From Methylococcaceae bacterium (GTDB lineage Bacteria; Pseudomonadota; Gammaproteobacteria; Methylococcales; Methylomonadaceae), in NCBI GenBank assembly GCA_006844585.1, contig SPJM01000085.1, forward strand, positions 1 through 34,845: a stretch of 34,845 nt of DNA, given 5' to 3'. The notes beneath the pieces are model-generated. The model made no database searches. It saw nothing but the letters and a program-made list of their open reading frames with translations, and was not told the origin of the DNA. Made by a program: the position numbers and the translations under genes. Positions 705-12,962 of this stretch are shown piece by piece (the first letter of the stretch is position 1; each line of letters starts with the position of its first letter).

Positions 705-1490
705 TTGAACAGTTTAGTACGACATTTCCCGTTAATATTCAGGATGATTCAACACGAGATTATCGGTCGATATAAAGGCTCGTTTCTTGGTTTACTTTGG
801 TCTTTTGTTACCCCGGTGCTGATGTTAGCCACTTACACCTTTGTCTTTAGCTTTGTTTTTAAAGCTCGCTGGGGTCAGCAACAAGCAGATCAATATGAAT
901 TCGCCGTCGTTTTGTTTTGCGGCCTGATTGTCTACAATCTTTTTTCAGAGTGTATCTCCAAAGCGCCGATGCTGATCATTAACAATATCAATTATGTCAA
1001 AAAAGTCATTTTTCCTCTAGCTATCCTACCGTGCGTCGCTTTAGGCTCCGCGTTGTTTCACGCCGCCATTAACTTTTTTATTTTAATAATATTTTTAACT
1101 GTATTAGGCTACCCATTCAACTGGGTCATGTTATGGGCGCCGCTTATTCTCACGCCTTTTTTATTGCTGACGCTTGGCGTCGCCTGGTTTCTGGCGTCAT
1201 TAGGCGTGTTTATTCGCGATATAGGTCAAGTCATTGGTTTGTTGCTCACGGTCTTATTATTTTTAAGTCCTATTTTTTATCCTTTGTCGGCTCTGCCGGA
1301 TGAAATTCAAAACTACTTGCTATTTAATCCAATCACCATCATTGTTGATCAAATGCGTACGGTAATCATTTGGGGCAAACAACCAAACTTGCAATTGATG
1401 GGCATTTACAGCGGGATTTCTGTTTTAACAGCTGGTTTCGGATTATGGTGGTTTCAAAAAACCCGCAAAGGATTTGCCGATGTCCTCTAA
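705..1490 (+). CDS. wzm: ABC-2 type polysaccharide exporter, permease subunit (Wzm-like)
   Basis: This is an inner-membrane permease of the Wzm/KpsM/TagG family, which forms the channel for an undecaprenyl-linked polysaccharide. The 261-aa length is typical. A short amphipathic N-terminus (RMIQHEIIGRYKGSFLGLLW) is the usual family signature, followed by about six hydrophobic segments near residues 30-55, 60-85, 105-135, 140-165, 170-195 and 230-250. The motif LSPIFYPLSALP near residues 187-198 is characteristic of exporters of this type. The start is a TTG 1 nt after the upstream stop; no better ATG fits the conserved N-terminus. Its 3' end overlaps the ATPase gene by 11 nt, as expected for co-translated subunits of one transporter. 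The identity as an O-antigen rather than capsule or teichoic-type exporter rests on the partner ATPase and the glycosyltransferase neighbours. Confidence 0.9.
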   Translation: MNSLVRHFPLIFRMIQHEIIGRYKGSFLGLLWSFVTPVLMLATYTFVFSFVFKARWGQQQADQYEFAVVLFCGLIVYNLFSECISKAPMLIINNINYVKKVIFPLAILPCVALGSALFHAAINFFILIIFLTVLGYPFNWVMLWAPLILTPFLLLTLGVAWFLASLGVFIRDIGQVIGLLLTVLLFLSPIFYPLSALPDEIQNYLLFNPITIIVDQMRTVIIWGKQPNLQLMGIYSGISVLTAGFGLWWFQKTRKGFADVL

Positions 1491-2697
1491 GCCGATTATC
1501 CAAGTTGAAAACGTCAGCAAATGCTATCAATTGTATGATCAACCGGCTGATCGTTTAAAGCAATTCTTATTTCGCGGCAGACGTAAATTTTTTAAAGAAT
1601 TTTGGGCTTTGCGGAATATTGACTTTAACATCCATGAAGGCGAAGTCATCGGCATCGTCGGCCGCAACGGGGCGGGCAAATCAACTCTGTTACAGTTAAT
1701 TTGCAGCACTTTATTTCCTTCTTCCGGACAAGTACAGGTCAACGGACGCATTGCCGCTTTGCTGGAATTAGGGGCCGGCTTTAATCCCGAATTTAGCGGG
1801 CGCGAAAATGTATTTATGAACGGCGCCATCTTAGGCTTATCGCACTCCGAAATGCAGGCGCGTTTTGATGAAATTGTTGATTTTTCCGGTGTTCGCGATT
1901 TTATCGATCAACCGGTTAAAACCTATTCCAGCGGCATGTATGTGCGCTTGGCTTTTTCTGTCGCCATCCATATCGAACCGGATATATTAGTGATTGATGA
2001 GGCTTTATCAGTTGGCGACGGCGCTTTTGCCCGCCAATCTTTTGATAAAATCATGTCCTTAAAGGATGCCGGTAAAACAATTTTGTTTTGCTCACATTCT
2101 TTATATCATATTGAAGCCATTTGTAATCGAGCGATTTGGCTGGAACGCGGCCATATTAAAGCGATGGGCGCCGCTCATGAAGTATCCAGCCAATATGCGC
2201 AAAGTCTCATCGTCAATGAAAAAGACGAACAAGCCACTAATCATCAGCCTGGCGTAGCTAATCAAGATACATACAAGCCCGCGAGAATCATCAACATAAC
2301 CGGCTATGCCGATGGCGTCGAAGGCAATGCATTGCAACTGCAAAGTGATAAAAGCGCTTTCAGCATAGAAATAGAATTTGAATATGACGCCGAATTGCCG
2401 TTGCCGAACGTAGCGATTACTTTTTCAACCATTGACGGTTTAGGCATCAGCTCATTAACCACTTACCACGACGATTTCCAAATCGACAGAGGCGCCGATA
2501 ATCGCTCCCGAGTTTCGGTAGAATTCCCCAATTTCCCGCTAATGAAAGGCGATTATCTAGTCAGCGTTTTTTTAGGTTGTGAAAACGCCCTGCACTGTTA
2601 TGACGATGCCAGCGGCATCATTCGCTTAACTGTAAATCAACCGGGAAATGAACAGGGATTTTTCAATTTACCTCATCAATGGCATCAACTTGAGTAA
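1480..2697 (+). CDS. wzt: ABC transporter ATPase for polysaccharide export with C-terminal glycan-recognition domain (Wzt-like)
   Basis: This is the cytoplasmic ATPase that powers polysaccharide export with the preceding permease. Walker A is GRNGAGKST (residues 61-69), the ABC signature YSSGMYVRL starts near residue 149, Walker B is ILVIDEA (D173/E174), and the H-loop is FCSHS near residue 207. After the ATPase domain (about 1-245), a roughly 135-residue beta-rich extension from about 265 matches the Wzt C-terminal domain. In E. coli O9a and similar systems that domain reads a modified non-reducing end of the glycan. The chosen start is the ATG at 1480, preceded by AAAGGA at 7 nt spacing; a TTG two codons earlier is possible but has poorer spacing. 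The C-terminal domain implies chain-end modification, which fits the methyltransferases and acetyltransferase in the cluster. Confidence 0.92.
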   Translation: MSSKPIIQVENVSKCYQLYDQPADRLKQFLFRGRRKFFKEFWALRNIDFNIHEGEVIGIVGRNGAGKSTLLQLICSTLFPSSGQVQVNGRIAALLELGAGFNPEFSGRENVFMNGAILGLSHSEMQARFDEIVDFSGVRDFIDQPVKTYSSGMYVRLAFSVAIHIEPDILVIDEALSVGDGAFARQSFDKIMSLKDAGKTILFCSHSLYHIEAICNRAIWLERGHIKAMGAAHEVSSQYAQSLIVNEKDEQATNHQPGVANQDTYKPARIINITGYADGVEGNALQLQSDKSAFSIEIEFEYDAELPLPNVAITFSTIDGLGISSLTTYHDDFQIDRGADNRSRVSVEFPNFPLMKGDYLVSVFLGCENALHCYDDASGIIRLTVNQPGNEQGFFNLPHQWHQLE

Positions 2698-2703
2698 TTC
2701 TCC

Positions 2704-3726
2704 ATGCATTTTTGTTATTTAGTAGCTTCCACGGAAATATGCGGAGGCGTCAGAGTTATTTTCGATCAAGCGCGCGCTTTATCAAACAAAGGTCATCAAG
2801 TCACGATACGCGCTGTTAACGGCGATCACAGCTGGTATCATCATCCGCTTCAAGTGGAATATGTTAAGGACTTAAGCCTTCCCTTAAAAACAAAAGCGGA
2901 TGTCGTCATCGCCACTTTCTGGACCACGGTAAAGTCGGCATTACAACTCAATTGCCCGAAAGTATTTCATCTTTGCCAAGGTTACGAGGGCGATTTTATC
3001 GAGTACGCCGACATTAAAACCGAAATAGAGGAGACCTATCGCACTCCAATCACTAAATTAACTATCGGCCAATGGATTACGGATCGATTAAAAGTGATTT
3101 ATGGCGAACAATATTTTAAAACTCATACCATTGGTCAAATAGTAGACACCGAATTATTCACGCCTAGAAAAAAATATTTCAGATATAAATGGAAACAATG
3201 GTTCAATCGTCCCTATAAAATATTATTGATAGGTATTTTTGAAGCGCAAGTTAAAGGCGTCCCTTATGCGCTGGAAGCCATTAAACAGCTAAAGCAAAAA
3301 GGCTTGAACATAGAACTGACCAGAGTTTCAAACCAACCTTTTTCTGATCAAGAAAAACGTTTTTTTCAAGCAGACCGTTATTTGATATCCTTAACGCCGA
3401 TTCAAATGGCGAAAACTTATCATCAACATGATTTATTACTTTCGCCATCACTGCCTGAAGAAGGTTTCGGCCTGCCCTTTGCAGAAGCATTAGCCAGCGG
3501 TTTGCCGTGCATCGCCACGCGAATCCCCTCTTCCAGCAGCTTTCATCATGATCAAGATTATGCTGTTTTCGCGCCGCCGAAAGATGCCGATGCCATGGTC
3601 AAAGCGATCGAAACTCTACTTGATGATCCTCAGCAAATGGAATTTTTAAGCCAACGCGGGCCGCGTATAATACAAAATCAATTTTCCGCAGACGCCGTCG
3701 CAGAGCGCCTGGAACAGATAGTTTAA
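2704..3726 (+). CDS. glycosyltransferase family 4 (GT-B fold)
   Basis: This 340-aa protein is a GT4-like retaining glycosyltransferase that would add a sugar to the growing polysaccharide at the cytoplasmic face of the membrane. The N-terminus MHFCYLVASTEICGGVR carries the glycine-rich acceptor-side loop of GT4 enzymes. The C-terminal half holds the donor-nucleotide site EEGFGLPFAEALASGLPCIA, with the E-x7-E pattern, at about residues 258-277. A PYKILLIGIFEAQVKGV segment near residue 170 is the usual start of the second Rossmann domain. It starts at an ATG 6 nt after the ATPase stop and so belongs to the same transcript. The donor and acceptor sugars cannot be read from the sequence. Confidence 0.85.
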   Translation: MHFCYLVASTEICGGVRVIFDQARALSNKGHQVTIRAVNGDHSWYHHPLQVEYVKDLSLPLKTKADVVIATFWTTVKSALQLNCPKVFHLCQGYEGDFIEYADIKTEIEETYRTPITKLTIGQWITDRLKVIYGEQYFKTHTIGQIVDTELFTPRKKYFRYKWKQWFNRPYKILLIGIFEAQVKGVPYALEAIKQLKQKGLNIELTRVSNQPFSDQEKRFFQADRYLISLTPIQMAKTYHQHDLLLSPSLPEEGFGLPFAEALASGLPCIATRIPSSSSFHHDQDYAVFAPPKDADAMVKAIETLLDDPQQMEFLSQRGPRIIQNQFSADAVAERLEQIV

Positions 3727-3765: not shown

Positions 3766-4845
3766 ATGATCACAGTCATTATCGTCAACTATTGTTGCGC
3801 AGAGCAAACGATTACCGCTGTCAATTCAGTACTGTCTGAAGCGGAAACAAGCGAGGTGATTGTGGTGGATAACAGCGTCAATGAACAAGAGGCTCAGACC
3901 TTAAAAAATTCATTGGACGGCAATGTTCGATTAATTATCAATCCAAACAATAGCGGTTTCGCGGCGGCCTGTAATCTTGCCTATCGACAAAGTCATGGAG
4001 ACTCTATATTTTTATTAAATCCGGACGCCTATATTTTACCCGGCTGCTTGAGTATACTTCACCAAAGCCTAGATACGTTACCACATGCAGGCGCTGTCGG
4101 GCCGCAAATATACTGGGATGATCAACAGCAGTTTTTTCTCCCGCCCAGCATGTTTCCAACGCCGTATTTAAAACTGGCGGCCAATAGTTGGCGCATCCAC
4201 CCCAGGCTTGCCGAACGCTATTCCAAACATTTTCACCGTTTAGCGTTATCAATCTGGTTGGAGAAAGAAAAGGCCGTTCCCATTCCCGCCTTATCCGGCG
4301 GCCATATTTTAATTAACCGATCAGCGATACAACATTGCGACGACCTGTTTGATGAGCGTTTTTTTATGTACTATGAAGATTCGGACTTAATGATAAGGCT
4401 TAAGCGCGCAGGTTTCCGGCAATATGTCGTACCGGAAGCGAAATGTGTTCATCATTATGTCCACAATGCCGAAAAGTTTGCTCAAATGGAACATTCTGAA
4501 CAATTGTATTTTCAAAAAAACTTTCCAAATCATTGGGCGAAACAATTGAACACTTGGCTGGAAAAACGCCGGTTTACAAATTTGAAATCTGTCCCCAAAC
4601 TAGAACAAACACAGAACTTGGTTGATTTAGAAATTAATCCGCTTATCGCTGAAAACGGACTTTTTGAAATCAGTCATTCTCCTTTTTTCGCCCCCTCTAT
4701 CGGCGCATTTTTTAATCACACGTTAACGTTTTCATTGGATAATGAGAATTTTGAACGCCTGGAAAAAGGGACTTATTATATTCGTCTCAGCTCAACCGAC
4801 CGGAAAAAGGACATTACCCAACAATGGCAGTGGCAAAAAACATGA
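3766..4845 (+). CDS. glycosyltransferase family 2 (rhamnosyltransferase-like, GT-A fold)
   Basis: This is a GT2 inverting glycosyltransferase of the dTDP-rhamnosyltransferase-like type. The N-terminal nucleotide-binding strand is ITVIIVNYCCAEQT, followed by VIVVDNS. The DXD-equivalent is LLNPDAYI near residues 84-91, and the catalytic-base region is FFMYYEDSDLMIRLKRAGF near residues 199-217. The GT-A domain ends by about residue 245. The remaining ~110 residues (from about 280) resemble no motif I recognise and may be an acceptor-specificity extension. The gene begins 39 nt after the GT4 gene, and its TGA stop overlaps an in-frame ATG of the next gene (ATGA), suggesting translational coupling. 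The rhamnose preference is only a family guess. Confidence 0.85.
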   Translation: MITVIIVNYCCAEQTITAVNSVLSEAETSEVIVVDNSVNEQEAQTLKNSLDGNVRLIINPNNSGFAAACNLAYRQSHGDSIFLLNPDAYILPGCLSILHQSLDTLPHAGAVGPQIYWDDQQQFFLPPSMFPTPYLKLAANSWRIHPRLAERYSKHFHRLALSIWLEKEKAVPIPALSGGHILINRSAIQHCDDLFDERFFMYYEDSDLMIRLKRAGFRQYVVPEAKCVHHYVHNAEKFAQMEHSEQLYFQKNFPNHWAKQLNTWLEKRRFTNLKSVPKLEQTQNLVDLEINPLIAENGLFEISHSPFFAPSIGAFFNHTLTFSLDNENFERLEKGTYYIRLSSTDRKKDITQQWQWQKT

Positions 4846-6611
4846 CGTTTAACCTACAATCCTCGGATCAAGATGAAGCGGGCGCTCTATTCAGCAATAT
4901 GCCTTTTCCATTAAATGTTTATGCAATGGCCTTATTTCTGGAGGAAGGCAAAGTTGACTATCTGCATTACGGTCTTTTCGAACAGCCGAATTCATCGCTG
5001 CAAGACGCTCAGCTTTACTCCACCCAATTAATTTGGGAGCAATTGCCGCCCCCTCCTTGCCGCATCCTGGAAGTCGGCATCGGCTTGGGAACAACCTTGA
5101 AAAGCCTGACTGAAAAGGGCTATCAGGTTCATGGAATTACCCCCGATGCACAACAAATCGCTTATGTTCAATCTCGCTGGGATGACGATGCGCCGGTCAG
5201 CCAGTCAGGATTGGAGACATTTCAGGATGAACCGGACAGTTATGATGTCTTGTTATTCCAGGAATCAAGCCAATATATTGCGCCGTTGGCCATTTTCAAT
5301 AAAGCGATGGATTTACTGAACCCCGAAGGTCGACTGATCATCATTGATGAATTTGCGCTAAAACGCGAAAAGGCCGGTTTCGAGGGTTTGCATTTACTGA
5401 ATGATTTTCTGGAGCTGGCTAAACGTTTTAATCTAAAAAAGCTTGTTCAATGCGATTTATCGGCAATGGCTGCGCCGACGCTGGCCTACTTGTTGAAAGT
5501 CACCGATAAACACCAACAAGCATTATTAAGCCGTTTATCGATTAATCCCCGCCAATTAGCCGAGCTGGACGAGTCCAACAAACAATATCAGCAAAAATAT
5601 AACCAGGGGTCATTTGGCTACGCCTTACTGCATTTTCAAAAACAAAGCTTACCAAAATGGCGATTGACAGACATTACCCATGCCCATATTGCTGATGTTC
5701 AACAATTATTCAAGGTTTGTTTTGATAAAACCTTATCGCCGGAACTTTGGCATTGGAAATATCAAAAACCCGCATCCGCTATCGGCGCTTGGAAAAACCA
5801 GCAGTTAATCGCCCACTATGGGGGCTTTCCCAGATCTATACTTTATTTCGGCGAAGCTCAACAAGCCGTACAAATCGGCGATGTGATGGCGCATCCGGAT
5901 GAGCGCGGTTCTTTAACCCGCAACAGCGCTTTTTTTCGGGTGGCGGCAACTTTTATCGAACAAAATATCGGTTACGGACGCCCTAACTTACTGGGCTTCG
6001 GATTTCCCAATGACCGCGCCATGAAGGTTGCAGAACATTTGGATTTATATCAAGAAGTCGCCCGTTTAATCACTCTCAAATGGCCGCCCGGCAACCCTCG
6101 CCCGGATTATATGAGTCAATTGCTGGTTTTGGATCAACATAGTCTCGATCAATACGCCGAGCCTATTAACAAATTATGGGCGGCTATGGCGCATGACCTT
6201 ACAGATGTTATCATCGGTGAGCGGAATAAAGATTATTTGTTCAGACGCTATCTCCATCACCCGGAACAACGTTATCACATCATACTGATGAAACAACGTT
6301 TTACCGGTACTGCACAGGGGGTGATGGTGCTGCAATTTTCCGATGGTTGCTGCCACATCATTGATTTGATCGCACCAATGAAAAACATCGCCACACTCAT
6401 TCAACAAGCTCGGCGCATTGCCGGTCGACATCAATGCGGCGCCTTACTTTGCCAAATCACTCAGAGTTTTACAGCGCATTTTAACTTATCTGAATGCACA
6501 ATAGACTCAGTCAGCATTCCTGTCGCCCATAATGTCAGGACGGAAGGTCCAAGCGCGGAAGTCGTAGAAAACAAATGGTGGTTAATGAGCGGCGATATGG
6601 ATTTTAGATAG
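4824..6611 (+). CDS. bifunctional methyltransferase / GNAT-family acetyltransferase fusion
   Basis: This is a 595-aa two-domain protein. The N-terminal part (about residues 60-190) is a class I SAM methyltransferase fold: motif I is RILEVGIGLGTTL, then GITPDAQQIAYVQ, LLFQESSQYI, and LLNPEGRLIIIDEFA. After a helical linker, residues about 280-595 look like a GNAT-type N-acetyltransferase (ADVQQLFKVCFDKTLSPELWHWKYQ; then YGGFP, QIGDVMAHPDERG, and FGFPNDRAMKVAEHL, a typical coenzyme-A-site region). The two activities suggest glycan modification such as O-methylation and N-acylation of an amino sugar. The start at 4824 has AAGGA about 12 nt upstream. The alternative ATG at 4842 overlaps the preceding stop as ATGA and is equally plausible. 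Domain calls are by motif reading; the GNAT assignment is less certain than the methyltransferase. Confidence 0.78.
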   Translation: MAVAKNMTFNLQSSDQDEAGALFSNMPFPLNVYAMALFLEEGKVDYLHYGLFEQPNSSLQDAQLYSTQLIWEQLPPPPCRILEVGIGLGTTLKSLTEKGYQVHGITPDAQQIAYVQSRWDDDAPVSQSGLETFQDEPDSYDVLLFQESSQYIAPLAIFNKAMDLLNPEGRLIIIDEFALKREKAGFEGLHLLNDFLELAKRFNLKKLVQCDLSAMAAPTLAYLLKVTDKHQQALLSRLSINPRQLAELDESNKQYQQKYNQGSFGYALLHFQKQSLPKWRLTDITHAHIADVQQLFKVCFDKTLSPELWHWKYQKPASAIGAWKNQQLIAHYGGFPRSILYFGEAQQAVQIGDVMAHPDERGSLTRNSAFFRVAATFIEQNIGYGRPNLLGFGFPNDRAMKVAEHLDLYQEVARLITLKWPPGNPRPDYMSQLLVLDQHSLDQYAEPINKLWAAMAHDLTDVIIGERNKDYLFRRYLHHPEQRYHIILMKQRFTGTAQGVMVLQFSDGCCHIIDLIAPMKNIATLIQQARRIAGRHQCGALLCQITQSFTAHFNLSECTIDSVSIPVAHNVRTEGPSAEVVENKWWLMSGDMDFR

Positions 6612-6691: not shown

Positions 6692-9600
6692 ATGACTCGA
6701 TTTTCTGAAACGGCTTATTTACCTAATCAAACTTCAGCACTCGCCAAAGGACCTTGGTTAATTCTCGCTCCACATCCCGACGATGAAAGCTTCGGCATGG
6801 GCGGAACATTATTATTGGCTAAACAGCAAAATATCCGAGTCAATGTTATTTTCTTAACAGACGGGCGTTTAGGCGGTTCTTCGGAGTCGGATTTGACCAC
6901 CACTCGTGAAGCGGAAGCCCAACAAGCTTGTCATTTACTTGGAATTGACAAACCGCATTTTTGGCGCGAACCGGATCGCGGTTTATCAACCTCGCAACAT
7001 CTAATTGATAAACTGTCTTCATTTATTCAAACGTTTCAACCGGCGGCTGTTTTTTTTCCTTCGCCTCTGGAGCCGCACCCCGATCATCGCGCTACGTCAG
7101 TTATAGCCTGGGAAGCATTGCGAAAATTAAACTTCCCGGCTCAAGCAATCAGTTACGATATATCCGTTCAAAGCCACACCAACCAATTAATTGACATCAG
7201 TGAAACAATCGAGCAAAAACAACAGCTCATGTCTTGCTATGCCAGTCAATTATCGGAAAATCATTATATTGATCGCATTGTCGGCTTAAATAAAGCTCGA
7301 GCCTGGTCGTTGCCGTTATCCGTCAGTCATGCGGAAGCTTTTTTTCTTTGGCCTGCGGAAAACCGACCGCTTAATGCAATGTTGCTGGATATTTCCGCCG
7401 CCCAAAGCTCACCATCGGCATTATCTGAACAATTGCCGCTGATTTCGGTAATCACCCGCACCCAAAACCGACCGGAATTATTGCGTGAAGCGATTCGTTC
7501 AGTTGGCGGTCAAACTTATCCTAATATTGAATTAATCGTAGTCAATGACGGCGGGGTCAATTGTGAAAACATCGTTCAACAAGAAGCGAGCGGTCATATT
7601 CAAAGTTTTCAATATCATCATTTCGAACAACAACAAGGACGCAGCCAGGCAGCCAACCAGGGGTTATCATTAAGCCAAGGGGAATATTTAATATTTTTGG
7701 ATGACGACGATTGGTTAGAATATGAACATATTCAACAATTATATAATGCTATTCAATCATCATCTGATGCTCAAGCCGCCTATTCCGCCACCCAATGCTT
7801 TGATGACCAAAAACAAGCGCTTCCTGATCAATTCGCCTATCCATTTGACGCCAACCGCTTAATTGTCGGCAATTTCATCCCGATCCATTCGGTGTTATTT
7901 TCCCGAGCTTTATTAGATCAGGGTTGCCGTTTCGATGAAACATTAGACGTTTATGAAGACTGGGATTTTTGGATACAAGCATCACGCATTACCAATTTTC
8001 TATTCGTCAACCAATTCACTGCTAATTACCGTATCGGCGGACAATCCGGCTTCGGCGTTAACTTCAATCAAGACAAGGCTGAGCAGAACAGTATAATCAT
8101 TTTTCGAAAATGGTTTGCGCAATTATCTGATGATGATTTGTTGCTGATCACCCACCAAGTCAGAGAGCACCAAAACGCAATCCAGCAACTCAATGAAAAT
8201 AACAAACTACTACAAGATCTCACTAATCAACTTGAAAAAAGCAATAACGCATCCAAGCAAAAAGAAAATAAAATACAGCAATTAGAATTAAACATTGCCG
8301 AAAAGAAACGAGAAGCTCTTGAACAACAATCCCAGATTCAGCATCTTGAATCTAATCTGAACACTCAAAACGAAAAAATCATTGAGTTTAATACCATTAC
8401 CCATCAATACGCTGAAAAAGTTGAACATCTCAATCAACAAATCAGACATTTAGAACAAGATTTACGTTCGCATAAAGATCAATTGATGCAGATCTTTAAT
8501 AGCCGCTCGTGGCATATTACTAAACCCTTACGCGCCATCAATCGGATTTCACCGATCAAATGGCTGCGCGAACTGATATATCATTTCTTCCGCAAAATTT
8601 GGCTGGCTATACCGGTTTCCTTATCGCAAAAACAAAGTTTCAAGCAGCGCTTATTTAACCATGCACCTGTAATTTTCAAACACAGCAAAGCCTATAAGGA
8701 CTGGCATGCCTTTGAAAATCCTACTGAATACCCATCTGCGCCGTTGGCAGTCGAAAACGCGCCGACAACACAATCCTCCGCCAATCAAACAGAAGAAATT
8801 TACAACGCTTATTTACGGACAGCTCACAACCAAACCATATCTGAGTTTGTCGATTATGCCGAAAACAACGCCAATCTATCCGCATCAGCTATCAAATTCA
8901 TTGCCTTTTATTTGCCGCAGTTTCACCCTATAGATGAAAATGATCGGGAATGGGGAAAAGGCTTTACCGAATGGACCAATGTTTCGAAAGCAACCCCGCA
9001 ATATACAGGACATTATCAGCCGCGTTTACCTGGTGAATTAGGCTTCTATGATTTACGTCTTAAAGAAATCCAGCAGCGTCAAATTGAATTAGCCAAGAAT
9101 TATGGTTTACATGGATTTTGTTACCATTATTACTGGTTCAACGGCAAAAAAGTACTGGATAAGCCTTTACAGCAAATATTGGATGATTCATCGTTGGACT
9201 TCCCTTTTTGTATTTGCTGGGCTAATGAAAACTGGACCCGTCGCTGGGATGGGGGCGAAGATGAAATCATTCTGGCGCAGAAACATTCGCCGGAAGATGA
9301 TTTGCACTTTATCCAAGATCTAGATCCTATCATACGCGATCCACGCTATATCCGTATCGACGGTAAACCCTTAGTTATTGTATATCGCCCTGAGTTGTTG
9401 CCTGATCCCAAACTGACCGCCCAACGCTGGCGACAATACACTCAGCAAAACGGCATCGGCGATTTATTCATTGTCGCTGCCGCAACTTTCGGTTTCGATG
9501 ATTATCAGCGCATAGGCTACGATGGTTTGGTGCAGTTTCCGCCGCATAATATCGGCGCCAAGGAGATATCCGATCAAGTCGCTTTATCAAACGCCAATTT

Positions 9601-11974
9601 CCACGGTCATATATTCGATTATCGAGACTATGCGCAACAGGCCTTAAAGAAGCTAAAAGGTAAAACTCACACTTTTCCATGTGTGATGATGGATTGGGAT
9701 AATGAAGCGCGTAAACCCGGCAGAGGTCATATATTTCACCATTGCTCACCGCAAAACTATCAACAATGGCTAAACGACTGCGCAGATTATGTGCTGGAAA
9801 ATAATACCGAGCAGGAACAGTTTGTCTTTATCAATGCCTGGAACGAATGGGCCGAAGGGACTTATCTGGAGCCGGATAGACGGTATGGTTATGCTTATTT
9901 AGATGCTACCCGGGAAGTGTTGCTCAAACATTTAAATCAACCTGAGCAGACACGAAAAATTATCCTGGTTACCCATGATGCGCATCCGATGGGTGCTCAA
10001 TATCTGGTGCTGAACCTGGCCAGAACATTAAGCGCTGAATTCAATTTTGAAGTCGCCTTGATTACATTGGGCGAAGGCGCGTTAATTTTAGATTATCTCA
10101 ACTGCGCCAAACTTCATAATCTCTCGAATATAGCCCCTGACAGCGAACAAGCGCGGGCAGTAGCGGAACAACTGGCGGCTGACGGCTACCCATCAGCTAT
10201 CGTTAACAGCACGGCATCCGGCTTGTTTTTAAAAACCTTGCATGATGTCGGCATCCATTGCATTTCTTTAGTTCATGAATTGCCTGGCATCGTCGAATCA
10301 TACAATCTCTATCAACACGCCGAAACAATAGCCGATTACGCCCAGGCAGTCATTTTTCCTGACCGCTATGTTTCTGATCGTTTCGTCAGTAAAGATAATC
10401 TTTCCGAACAACAGTTGAAAATTCGCACTCAAGGATTATACAAACTTAATGCCTTGAAAAACGATATTGCTACAGCGCGTAGACAGTTACGCAGTGAATT
10501 GAATTTGTCTGAAGAAGCCAAAATTGTTCTCGGCGTCGGCTATGCCGATTTCAGAAAAGGCATCGATTTATTCGTTGAAATAGCTTTATCGGTCGGCGCA
10601 CAAACAGGTGATTGTTATTTTGTCTGGCTGGGAGACTGGGATAATCAAGTCAAGCTAGAAGTTGAAAAACAACTGGAAAACCGACCTTTTGCAGACCGCC
10701 TGATATTCCCAGGCCGTCGTTCGGATACCGACGCATTTTACGCCGGGGCCGACCTACTGGCGTTGACCTCACGGGAAGACCCGTTTCCTTCAGTGATGAT
10801 GGAATCATTAAATGTCGGCGTTCCTATTGTCGGCTTTGAAAACGTAGGCGGCAGCGAAACCTTGTTGAAACAAGGCTGCGGCATTTTGGTTCCATTTGAA
10901 GATTGTCAGGCATTCAGCCATGCGGTATTGGAACTATTGGCCGATTCACCCAAAAGACAACAATTAGGATCAACAGGTCGGCAAATAATCGATGAACAGT
11001 TTTCCTTCCGTCATTATATTTTTGACTTGCTGGCCTACCTCGACATCCCCTTGCCGCGCGTCTCCGCCATCGTGCCGAATTATAACTATGCGCATTATCT
11101 AAAACAGCGAATAGACTCAGTTCTTGATCAATCCTATCCGCTTTACGAGTTGATTGTGATTGATGATGCTTCCAGCGATAACAGCGTTGAAGTGATTGAA
11201 AGTTGTTTTCAGCAAACCACTATCGACACTCGATTGGTCAAAAACACCCAAAATTCCGGTTCGGTATTCAAACAATGGCAAAAAGCGGCCGAACTTGCGC
11301 AAGGCGATATAATCTGGATTGCCGAAGCCGACGATGATGCAGATCCGCAATTTATCAATTCATTAATGCCTGCTTTTAATGACCCGGAGACGGTTCTGGC
11401 TTACTGTCAATCCGAACAAATCGATGAACAAGGCCAAGTCACTGAATCCGATTATTTAGCTTATACCCAACACATTAATAATCAAAAATGGCTGCAAGAT
11501 TATCGTAATCAGGGTAAGGAAGAAATCATAAACGCCTTGGCGATTAAAAACACCATCCCCAACGCCAGCGCAGTTTTGTTCCGCAAAGATGCATTTGCTG
11601 AATCCATGCAACAATGCCGCGCCGATCTGGATAAGCTGAATATCGCCGGCGATTGGCTGATTTATTGCGCCTTATTGCAACAAGGAAAAATCAGTTATTG
11701 CGCTGAATCATTAAATAAACACCGCCGTCACCAGCAAAGCGTGACGATCTCTTCTTCATCTCATCTACGTCATTTGGCGGAAGTGATCTGGATGCAAAGA
11801 TGGATAACGGAACAGATCGATCTGCCTGCAAAAGCGCGGAAACTAGCTGATCAATACGTTCAAACGCTATATCAACAATTTCAACTGGATAAAGGCGGGG
11901 TAACGGATTGGCGGAAAAATGCAGAATTGGAAGCGCAATTAAATGCATTATCGAACACAACAGTAGGCGTATAA
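6692..11974 (+). CDS. giant multidomain glycan protein: PIG-L/LmbE deacetylase, GT2, coiled coil, WbsX-like, GT4, GT2
   Basis: This single 1760-aa reading frame joins at least five catalytic-type domains. Residues about 20-220 are a PIG-L/LmbE zinc deacetylase (APHPDDE at 26-32, HPDH at 129-132), expected to N-deacetylate a sugar. Residues about 250-480 are a GT2 domain with LDDDDW (DXD acids at 337-340). About 490-602 is a Gln/Glu/Asn-rich coiled coil. About 735-1070 is a WbsX/GH99-like domain (FIAFYLPQFHP, EWTNVSKA, WANENWTRRW, NAWNEWAEG), common in O-antigen loci. About 1089-1445 is a GT4 domain (GYADFRKGIDLF near 1280, EDPFPSVMMESL near 1361). About 1456-1740 is a second GT2 (AIVPNYNYAHYL, AEADDDADP). 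No signal peptide or clear membrane span is seen, so it is probably cytoplasmic. The frame is unbroken, so this is a true fusion. Donors and acceptors are unknown. Confidence 0.88.
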   Translation: MTRFSETAYLPNQTSALAKGPWLILAPHPDDESFGMGGTLLLAKQQNIRVNVIFLTDGRLGGSSESDLTTTREAEAQQACHLLGIDKPHFWREPDRGLSTSQHLIDKLSSFIQTFQPAAVFFPSPLEPHPDHRATSVIAWEALRKLNFPAQAISYDISVQSHTNQLIDISETIEQKQQLMSCYASQLSENHYIDRIVGLNKARAWSLPLSVSHAEAFFLWPAENRPLNAMLLDISAAQSSPSALSEQLPLISVITRTQNRPELLREAIRSVGGQTYPNIELIVVNDGGVNCENIVQQEASGHIQSFQYHHFEQQQGRSQAANQGLSLSQGEYLIFLDDDDWLEYEHIQQLYNAIQSSSDAQAAYSATQCFDDQKQALPDQFAYPFDANRLIVGNFIPIHSVLFSRALLDQGCRFDETLDVYEDWDFWIQASRITNFLFVNQFTANYRIGGQSGFGVNFNQDKAEQNSIIIFRKWFAQLSDDDLLLITHQVREHQNAIQQLNENNKLLQDLTNQLEKSNNASKQKENKIQQLELNIAEKKREALEQQSQIQHLESNLNTQNEKIIEFNTITHQYAEKVEHLNQQIRHLEQDLRSHKDQLMQIFNSRSWHITKPLRAINRISPIKWLRELIYHFFRKIWLAIPVSLSQKQSFKQRLFNHAPVIFKHSKAYKDWHAFENPTEYPSAPLAVENAPTTQSSANQTEEIYNAYLRTAHNQTISEFVDYAENNANLSASAIKFIAFYLPQFHPIDENDREWGKGFTEWTNVSKATPQYTGHYQPRLPGELGFYDLRLKEIQQRQIELAKNYGLHGFCYHYYWFNGKKVLDKPLQQILDDSSLDFPFCICWANENWTRRWDGGEDEIILAQKHSPEDDLHFIQDLDPIIRDPRYIRIDGKPLVIVYRPELLPDPKLTAQRWRQYTQQNGIGDLFIVAAATFGFDDYQRIGYDGLVQFPPHNIGAKEISDQVALSNANFHGHIFDYRDYAQQALKKLKGKTHTFPCVMMDWDNEARKPGRGHIFHHCSPQNYQQWLNDCADYVLENNTEQEQFVFINAWNEWAEGTYLEPDRRYGYAYLDATREVLLKHLNQPEQTRKIILVTHDAHPMGAQYLVLNLARTLSAEFNFEVALITLGEGALILDYLNCAKLHNLSNIAPDSEQARAVAEQLAADGYPSAIVNSTASGLFLKTLHDVGIHCISLVHELPGIVESYNLYQHAETIADYAQAVIFPDRYVSDRFVSKDNLSEQQLKIRTQGLYKLNALKNDIATARRQLRSELNLSEEAKIVLGVGYADFRKGIDLFVEIALSVGAQTGDCYFVWLGDWDNQVKLEVEKQLENRPFADRLIFPGRRSDTDAFYAGADLLALTSREDPFPSVMMESLNVGVPIVGFENVGGSETLLKQGCGILVPFEDCQAFSHAVLELLADSPKRQQLGSTGRQIIDEQFSFRHYIFDLLAYLDIPLPRVSAIVPNYNYAHYLKQRIDSVLDQSYPLYELIVIDDASSDNSVEVIESCFQQTTIDTRLVKNTQNSGSVFKQWQKAAELAQGDIIWIAEADDDADPQFINSLMPAFNDPETVLAYCQSEQIDEQGQVTESDYLAYTQHINNQKWLQDYRNQGKEEIINALAIKNTIPNASAVLFRKDAFAESMQQCRADLDKLNIAGDWLIYCALLQQGKISYCAESLNKHRRHQQSVTISSSSHLRHLAEVIWMQRWITEQIDLPAKARKLADQYVQTLYQQFQLDKGGVTDWRKNAELEAQLNALSNTTVGV

Positions 11975-11978
11975 ACCC

Positions 11979-12962
11979 GTGTCGATCAGTGTAGTCATCG
12001 TTAATTGGAACGGTGGAAAGCTATTAGAGCAATGCTTGCTTGGGGTATTAAATCAAAGCCATCCTGCGGAAAAAATCCTACTGATGGATAACGGCAGTCG
12101 CGACGGGTCGGCAAAACGCGCCGCACAAATACCGGGCATTGAAGTTGAATTTTTAGCAGAAAACTTAGGCTTTGCCCAGGCCAACAATCTGGCCTTTGAA
12201 CAATTAGATACGGAATGGGTGGCCTTATTAAACCCCGATGCGGTGCCGGATAAAGACTGGCTGTTGCATTTGTTTGAAGCAACCCGAAAATACCCGGATA
12301 CGGCCATGCTCGGCAGTAAACAATTACAATTACGCGCGCCGGAAAAACTAGACGGGATCGGCGATAGCTATCATTTATCCGGGCTGATGTGGCGGCAAGG
12401 TTACGGCCAAATTGATGATATCAATACTGAAAACGGAAGGGAAATCTTTTCACCTTGCGCCTGCGCAGCGTTATACCGGCTCTCAGAAATTAAAGAAATC
12501 GGCGGTTTCGATAGCGATTTCTTTTGTTACACGGAAGATGTAGATTTAGGCTTTCGGCTGCGCTTGCGCGGCCATAAAGCGCGTTATATTGCGAACGCCA
12601 AGGTTTTTCACGCCGGTTCTGCCAGCACCGGCAGTCAGCACAGCGATTTCGCGCTTTATCACGGCCACCGAAACTTGGTCTGGACATATCTTAAAAATAT
12701 GCCGGGGATATTATTTTGGCTGTGTTTACCCGTTCATATCGCCTTAAATGTATTCAGCCTGGCTCATTTCGCGAGGATTGGAAAATTCCAACCCTTGCTG
12801 TCTGCAAAAAAAGATGCCCTCAGCGGGGTTCCGGCAATGTGGCGTAAACGGTGGAAAATTCAAAGTCAGCGTCAAGTGAGCTGTTTTCAAATATGGCGTT
12901 GTTTAGATAAAAGTTTCATCCCTAGAACTAAGGATGGCAGTCCAAATAAATTAGATAACTGA
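11979..12962 (+). CDS. glycosyltransferase family 2 (rhamnosyltransferase-like)
   Basis: This is a 327-aa GT2 enzyme. It begins at a GTG 4 nt after the stop of the giant gene, with the family start ISVVIVNWNGG immediately after. LLMDNGSRDGS, the DXD-equivalent ALLNPDAVP (near residue 81), and FFCYTEDVDLGFRLRLRG (near residues 182-199) are the expected donor, metal and base regions. A hydrophobic stretch near residues 243-262 (MPGILFWLCLPVHIALNVF) may anchor it to the membrane, as in rhamnosyltransferases of the WbbL type. The Lys/Arg-rich C-terminus would face the cytoplasm. It is the last gene of the glycan cluster; a strong hairpin follows 6 nt after the stop. Confidence 0.87.
   Translation: MSISVVIVNWNGGKLLEQCLLGVLNQSHPAEKILLMDNGSRDGSAKRAAQIPGIEVEFLAENLGFAQANNLAFEQLDTEWVALLNPDAVPDKDWLLHLFEATRKYPDTAMLGSKQLQLRAPEKLDGIGDSYHLSGLMWRQGYGQIDDINTENGREIFSPCACAALYRLSEIKEIGGFDSDFFCYTEDVDLGFRLRLRGHKARYIANAKVFHAGSASTGSQHSDFALYHGHRNLVWTYLKNMPGILFWLCLPVHIALNVFSLAHFARIGKFQPLLSAKKDALSGVPAMWRKRWKIQSQRQVSCFQIWRCLDKSFIPRTKDGSPNKLDN

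Follow-up and report, generated by a model that had tools for sequence, protein, structure and literature searches.

The window analysed here, i.e. the whole stretch of 34,845 nucleotides, comes from a genome that carries pmoA, its host being a methanotroph and most likely one of the Methylococcales. Genes for a Wzm-like permease and a Wzt ATPase lie at its beginning together with glycosyltransferase and methyltransferase genes (Table 1), and past 13 kb the genes are mainly housekeeping and regulatory. They form a surface-glycan locus, probably one for an O-antigen, in which export depends on an ABC transporter. Since the contig begins within a methyltransferase gene, sugar-nucleotide genes belonging to this glycan locus probably lie outside the window.

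Table 1. Genes of the glycan locus and modules of the fusion protein (positions refer to the window, residues to the respective product).
Feature	Residues	Position	Strand	Basis
Class I methyltransferase, truncated at the contig start		2..703	+	Pfam
Wzm-like ABC-2 permease		705..1490	+	Pfam
Wzt ATPase with Wzt_C glycan-binding domain PF14524	270-398 (Wzt_C)	1474..2697	+	Pfam
GT4 glycosyltransferase		2704..3726	+	Pfam
GT2 glycosyltransferase		3766..4845	+	Pfam
Methyltransferase fused to GNAT half (5649-6608)	75-180 (methyltransferase); 276-595 (GNAT)	4824..6611	+	Pfam
Whole fusion ORF, 1760 aa		6692..11974	+	ATG start, Pfam
PIG-L/LmbE-type de-N-acetylase module	10-225	6719..7366	+	Pfam, motifs, fold
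First GT2 module	246-480	7427..8131	+	Pfam, motifs, fold matches
Coiled coil	480-602	8129..8497	+	Predicted helix, heptad period 3.5
SxSWxxTxPLR motif closing the coil	604-614	8501..8533	+	Homologue alignment
Cationic amphipathic helix, candidate membrane contact	621-638	8552..8605	+	Hydrophobic moment
WbsX module	737-1072	8900..9907	+	Pfam PF14307
GT4 (GT-B) module	1088-1445	9953..11026	+	Pfam, fold match
Second GT2 module	1452-1700	11045..11791	+	Pfam, motif
GT2 glycosyltransferase		11979..12962	+	Pfam; starts 4 bases after fusion ORF

The reading frame of the fusion contains no internal stop, and stops are abundant on the opposite strand. Its product consists of a PIG-L domain, a GT2, a coil of 123 residues, an amphipathic helix, a WbsX domain, a GT4 and a second GT2, in this order; Pfam recognizes three glycosyltransferase domains plus WbsX, all above gathering cut-offs. 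The one unbroken frame of 1760 residues with PIG-L, GT2, coil, WbsX, GT4 and GT2 modules that the first-pass annotation had described is thus borne out. The PIG-L domain matches PF02585 over residues 23-142 (5.8e-29) and carries the motifs HPDDE (28-32) and HPDH (129-132), in which H28, D30, D31, E32 and H129-H132 are invariant in 12 of 12 homologues aligned. Foldseek superimposes it on solved PIG-L enzymes with TM(target) scores of 0.66-0.80, and its relatives in the PDB are BshB and diacetylchitobiose deacetylase. For the first GT2, fold matches were found in the structure search, and the same 12 of 12 homologues keep DDDD in the DXD region (337-340) and ED in the catalytic-base region (422-423). 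Glycos_transf_2 is matched in two stretches (1.3e-50), the best being 1458-1635 and the other lying within the 250-480 region.

The WbsX match covers positions 2-349 of the 350 of its model (3e-133, 445 bits), and a profile built from 32 WbsX domains matched no GH99 chain in the PDB. In the fold search with the tail, the matches were taken up by the GT4 domain. The GT4 domain itself matches Glycos_transf_1 at 1264-1431 (1e-22), and its fold resembles HepE and BshA with Z scores of about 37-38 (against 4xsr, Z 38.1 and rmsd 2.4 over 349 residues). A D-x7-E stretch at 1363-1371 of the GT4 and an acidic motif around 1545-1549 of the second GT2 are present as well, both read off the sequence rather than from an alignment. 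A lack of catalytic residues in several modules had been named as a result that would speak against the first reading of the protein; the motifs examined are intact, in PIG-L and the first GT2 by alignment and in the GT4 and the second GT2 as read off the sequence. The intact motifs in the homologue alignment rule out an inactive PIG-L or first GT2.

AlphaFold, run with an alignment of 12 heads, predicts one continuous helix of 123 residues at 480-602, in a model with a mean pLDDT of 74.5. This stretch is a coiled coil, because it contains neither proline nor glycine and its hydrophobic periodicity peaks at exactly 3.5 residues (none of 2000 shuffles was as strong); its length would be ~18 nm at 0.15 nm per residue. 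The distance from the end of the GT2 to the SxSW motif ranges from 61 to 165 residues across homologues; such a variable coil length allows a ruler though it is no proof of one, and the coil could act as a ruler or scaffold. All of the 12 homologues keep S, W, T, P and R in the motif that closes the coil. The amphipathic helix that follows is predicted in a region of the model with a pLDDT of 50-60, and has a hydrophobic moment of 0.53 and a net charge of +3. The earlier view that the protein assembles a glycan with several modules, has a true coil and belongs to a locus of the O-antigen type is supported. The GNAT partner and the Wzm/Wzt context were absent from the first-pass annotation.

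The gene directly preceding the fusion in Table 1 encodes a product whose GNAT half has a modest Pfam match (5e-8), on which its identification rests. Among 311 genomes of the order, we found this GNAT half in 39 and PIG-L in 41, with both in 36 (36 of the 39 GNAT genomes) where 5.1 are expected (Fisher 4e-38, a significance overstated by the relatedness of the genomes). Where the two genes share a contig, they are no more than 9 kb apart in 29 of 29 cases; the 14 GNAT genera are all among the 15 PIG-L genera. As for the genomes with Wzt_C, both genes are present in 32, neither in 16 and one alone in 4 (2 + 2), giving a p of 2e-9 that is inflated by kinship; in G055, a GNAT-only Wzt_C genome, the PIG-L match is just below threshold. 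Some genomes with close Wzt_C domains are without both GNAT and PIG-L. Among genome-contig loci with Wzt, GNAT occurs in 6 of the 7 having PIG-L and in 0 of the 27 without it. In addition, PIG-L, GT2 and GNAT are fused in one frame of 883 residues (L145:1447-4095), and outside the order GNAT matches were obtained in 2 of 299 genomes of the phylum, both of which have PIG-L-GT2 heads, one of them 1.4 kb away.

The genome of the window also encodes, on another contig (C363, L246:8426-12081), a second PIG-L protein of 1021 aa with PIG-L and three GT2 stretches, whose gene overlaps the GNAT gene before it; this GNAT belongs to a different Pfam family (Acetyltransf_3), and the two make a second PIG-L/GNAT pair. 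Although the p-values are inflated by kinship, the pairing of PIG-L with GNAT is indicated alike by fusion, by adjacency and by this second GNAT family. The GNAT/PIG-L linkage is the new point relative to the known polymerase-terminator layout.

Recurrence was scanned in 80 named loci, 311 genomes of the order, 369 genomes of the class and a plasmid collection, and completed by a domain census. Two blocks recur, a head made of PIG-L, GT2 and coil, and a common tail made of WbsX, GT4 and GT2. A PIG-L head on a multi-glycosyltransferase chain had been considered less usual; the head is in fact present in more than 20 loci of related methanotroph genomes and other Proteobacteria, which rules out a unique head. 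Its nearest named relatives are Methyloprofundus. Some heads stop after the coil (L028, L062, L061, L079), and others are followed by GT4-GT4 (L130), GT2-GT2 (L031, L067, L095), WbsX-RgpF (L125), RgpF-HAD (L134) or, in the window protein, WbsX-GT4-GT2. In the RgpF-HAD form (L134:6039-10733), a single chain runs from PIG-L-GT2-coil through RgpF to a HAD-type hydrolase. L132 encodes PIG-L by a gene of its own, directly upstream of GT2-coil-WbsX-RgpF, and in L042, L049, L061 and L079 a PIG-L-GT2-coil gene and a separate WbsX gene share one locus. WbsX-GT4-GT2 tails, annotated as GH99-like, are also found on plasmids of Bradyrhizobium, Azospirillum and Aminobacter.

The modules of the window protein have different closest relatives: L028 for the head (60-64% identity), WbsX-RgpF proteins for WbsX (70-71%), and proteins of Legionella massiliensis and G161 for the GT4 and GT2 (41-51%). 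The search for the same domain order, proposed in the first-pass annotation, gave a divided answer. Four-module overlaps exist, GT2-coil-WbsX-GT4-GT2 in L126 and L127 and PIG-L-GT2-coil-WbsX in L125, and these overlapping chains in single frames, with the same order and in other genomes, rule out an assembly artefact. No second protein with the full five-module order was found in the 311 order genomes, the 369 class genomes, the best 80 genome-contig loci and the plasmid collection, the best candidates per genome being scored. L125, a protein of 1327 aa annotated as hypothetical, is encoded on a 42-kb Methyloprofundus plasmid (AP023241.1). It shares 52% identity with the window protein over residues 1-1084 and has the same Wzm/Wzt/GNAT/GT2 neighbours, but RgpF there takes the place of GT4-GT2. 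Homology ends at the WbsX/GT4 border (residue 1084) and restarts in the next gene, the GT2 gene at 11979-12962 being 60% identical to that at the same position beside L125. Judging from the sequences, the two proteins differ by a swap of cassettes at that border, and the window fusion is one combination within a shuffling family. The plasmid locus (L125:1272-13516) is a Wzm/Wzt glycan locus with radical-SAM, GNAT and fusion genes, and the plasmid has two replication initiator genes.

In the characterised Klebsiella proteins, the terminator is located at the far end of a coil and the polymerase glycosyltransferases at its membrane end, be it within a single chain or spread over several (PMC11231755). 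Like ORF6 of K. pneumoniae O7, the window protein combines a head, a central coil and C-terminal glycosyltransferases beside Wzm/Wzt export, and like the orthologues of ORF6, its relatives occur both with a glycosyltransferase tail and ending after the coil (PMC11231755). However, the head of ORF6 is a methyltransferase-kinase and its tail two GT2, whereas here the head is PIG-L and GT2 with a separate GNAT/methyltransferase partner, and the tail is WbsX-GT4-GT2. K. pneumoniae O12 WbbB, in the description of PMC11231755, has a chain-ending head that is a glycosyltransferase, a coil and C-terminal polymerase glycosyltransferases in the same chain; unlike the window protein, it caps with Kdo, belongs to the GT99/102/103 families and has no deacetylase. 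In E. coli O9a WbdD/WbdA, a coiled coil carries the terminator, as it would here, and comes with a membrane amphipathic helix, for which the window protein has a candidate, but two proteins are involved and the cap is phosphate-methyl. B. gladioli mutants in which the large WbsX protein encoded by an ABC locus is broken are resistant to an LPS-binding phage (PMC13391952), which supports an O-antigen role of WbsX proteins. The terminators described in the literature that we found make phosphate/methyl or Kdo additions, none with PIG-L, and our literature search yielded no paper in which a PIG-L head belongs to an ABC-dependent O-antigen system.

We give about an even chance to the window protein being a one-chain polymerase-terminator, in which the PIG-L/GT2 head builds, together with GNAT, a re-acylated amino-sugar cap. 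The polysaccharide, most likely the LPS O-antigen, would be made in the cytoplasm and exported through the neighbouring Wzm/Wzt. The C-terminal WbsX, GT4 and GT2 modules and the standalone glycosyltransferases would build the chain at the membrane, where the amphipathic helix after the coil may hold the polymerase modules, and the head, ~18 nm off along the coil, would terminate it. The head GT2 would add an N-acetylated amino sugar, PIG-L would take off the acetyl group and the GNAT half encoded just upstream would re-acylate the freed amine, the methyltransferase half possibly modifying the cap further. Given GNAT as the partner, this order, GT2 then PIG-L then GNAT, would be the simplest chemistry. 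Wzt_C would then recognize the cap, and export would start. The first-pass annotation had placed deacetylation first, which is probably the wrong order, since the head sits at the terminator position and deacetylation is more likely to come last, on the cap.

This terminator reading is favoured because the layout of head, coil, candidate membrane helix and glycosyltransferases matches that of O7 ORF6 and O12 WbbB, because the tail swaps behind one conserved head, and because the GNAT linkage holds inside and outside the order, including the L145 fusion. It is favoured as well by precedents for joining glycosyl transfer, de-N-acetylation and N-acylation. In lipid A synthesis, LpxC and then LpxD perform de-N-acetylation followed by new N-acylation. 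For the P. aeruginosa core, a proposed pathway involves WaaG, DnpA and then L-Ala (PMC10579960), and the PIG-L and GNAT genes adjoin (PMC8005017). PA5001-PA5003 of this LPS core locus (GT4, the PIG-L protein DnpA, GNAT) thus resemble our set by their adjacency, but they are separate small proteins concerned with a core sugar, with no coil or polymerase and a function that is only proposed (PMC8005017, PMC10579960).

That the head acts as a terminator, and not as a repeat-modifying or adaptor unit, is in our analysis the main unproved step; the amino sugar that PIG-L and GNAT modify could equally be internal or at the reducing end. The head could be part of the polymerase, its GT2 adding an amino sugar in each repeat and PIG-L and GNAT swapping the N-acyl group each time, with the coil merely a tether. 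A long repeat suits five modules and extra glycosyltransferase genes, and the tight PIG-L/GNAT pairing would hold wherever the sugar sits. We nevertheless consider this explanation unlikely, as the cassette that builds the repeat is replaced wholesale with no change of head or GNAT, which is expected of a cap or an adaptor more than of a residue of the repeat, and as the far coil end is the terminator position in known proteins. An adaptor would also suit a conserved head with variable tails, and substrates of the PIG-L family are GlcNAc-lipid or GlcNAc-small-acceptor compounds, as for the PDB relatives named above, so that the head might act at the reducing end, de-N-acetylating or extending lipid-linked primer or adaptor sugars before polymerisation. 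It seems improbable, however, that this membrane-proximal step would fall at the coil end furthest from the predicted membrane helix; moreover, the head goes together with Wzt_C, and the partner known for Wzt_C is a terminal modification (PMC9445017). Least probable is a chance fusion of a PIG-L-GT2-coil and a WbsX-GT4-GT2 protein with independent functions: the two halves are known apart, as separate genes in the four loci cited above, and each module has its best relatives in different proteins, but related fusions are retained in several genomes, one of them on a plasmid, and 12 homologues conserve the motif that closes the coil.

Returning to the terminator reading, it is possible, and we say so with less confidence, that these proteins represent an undescribed class of terminators, in which a GT2, PIG-L and GNAT cap with an exchanged N-acyl group is read by a matching Wzt_C, on a coil ruler with swappable polymerase cassettes. 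The deacetylase-glycosyltransferase-acyltransferase set tied to Wzt_C, more interesting than the fusion, is a candidate for a new capping chemistry. If true, the deacetylase-acyltransferase cap would be new chemistry beside the phosphate/methyl and Kdo caps, and would explain what 'hypothetical' proteins that recur as a set among environmental bacteria do. The natural swaps, in which one head is followed by WbsX-RgpF or by WbsX-GT4-GT2, would be ready tests of whether head, coil and polymerase can be recombined; in this reading, one gene could switch the repeat structure of the polysaccharide with its cap unchanged.
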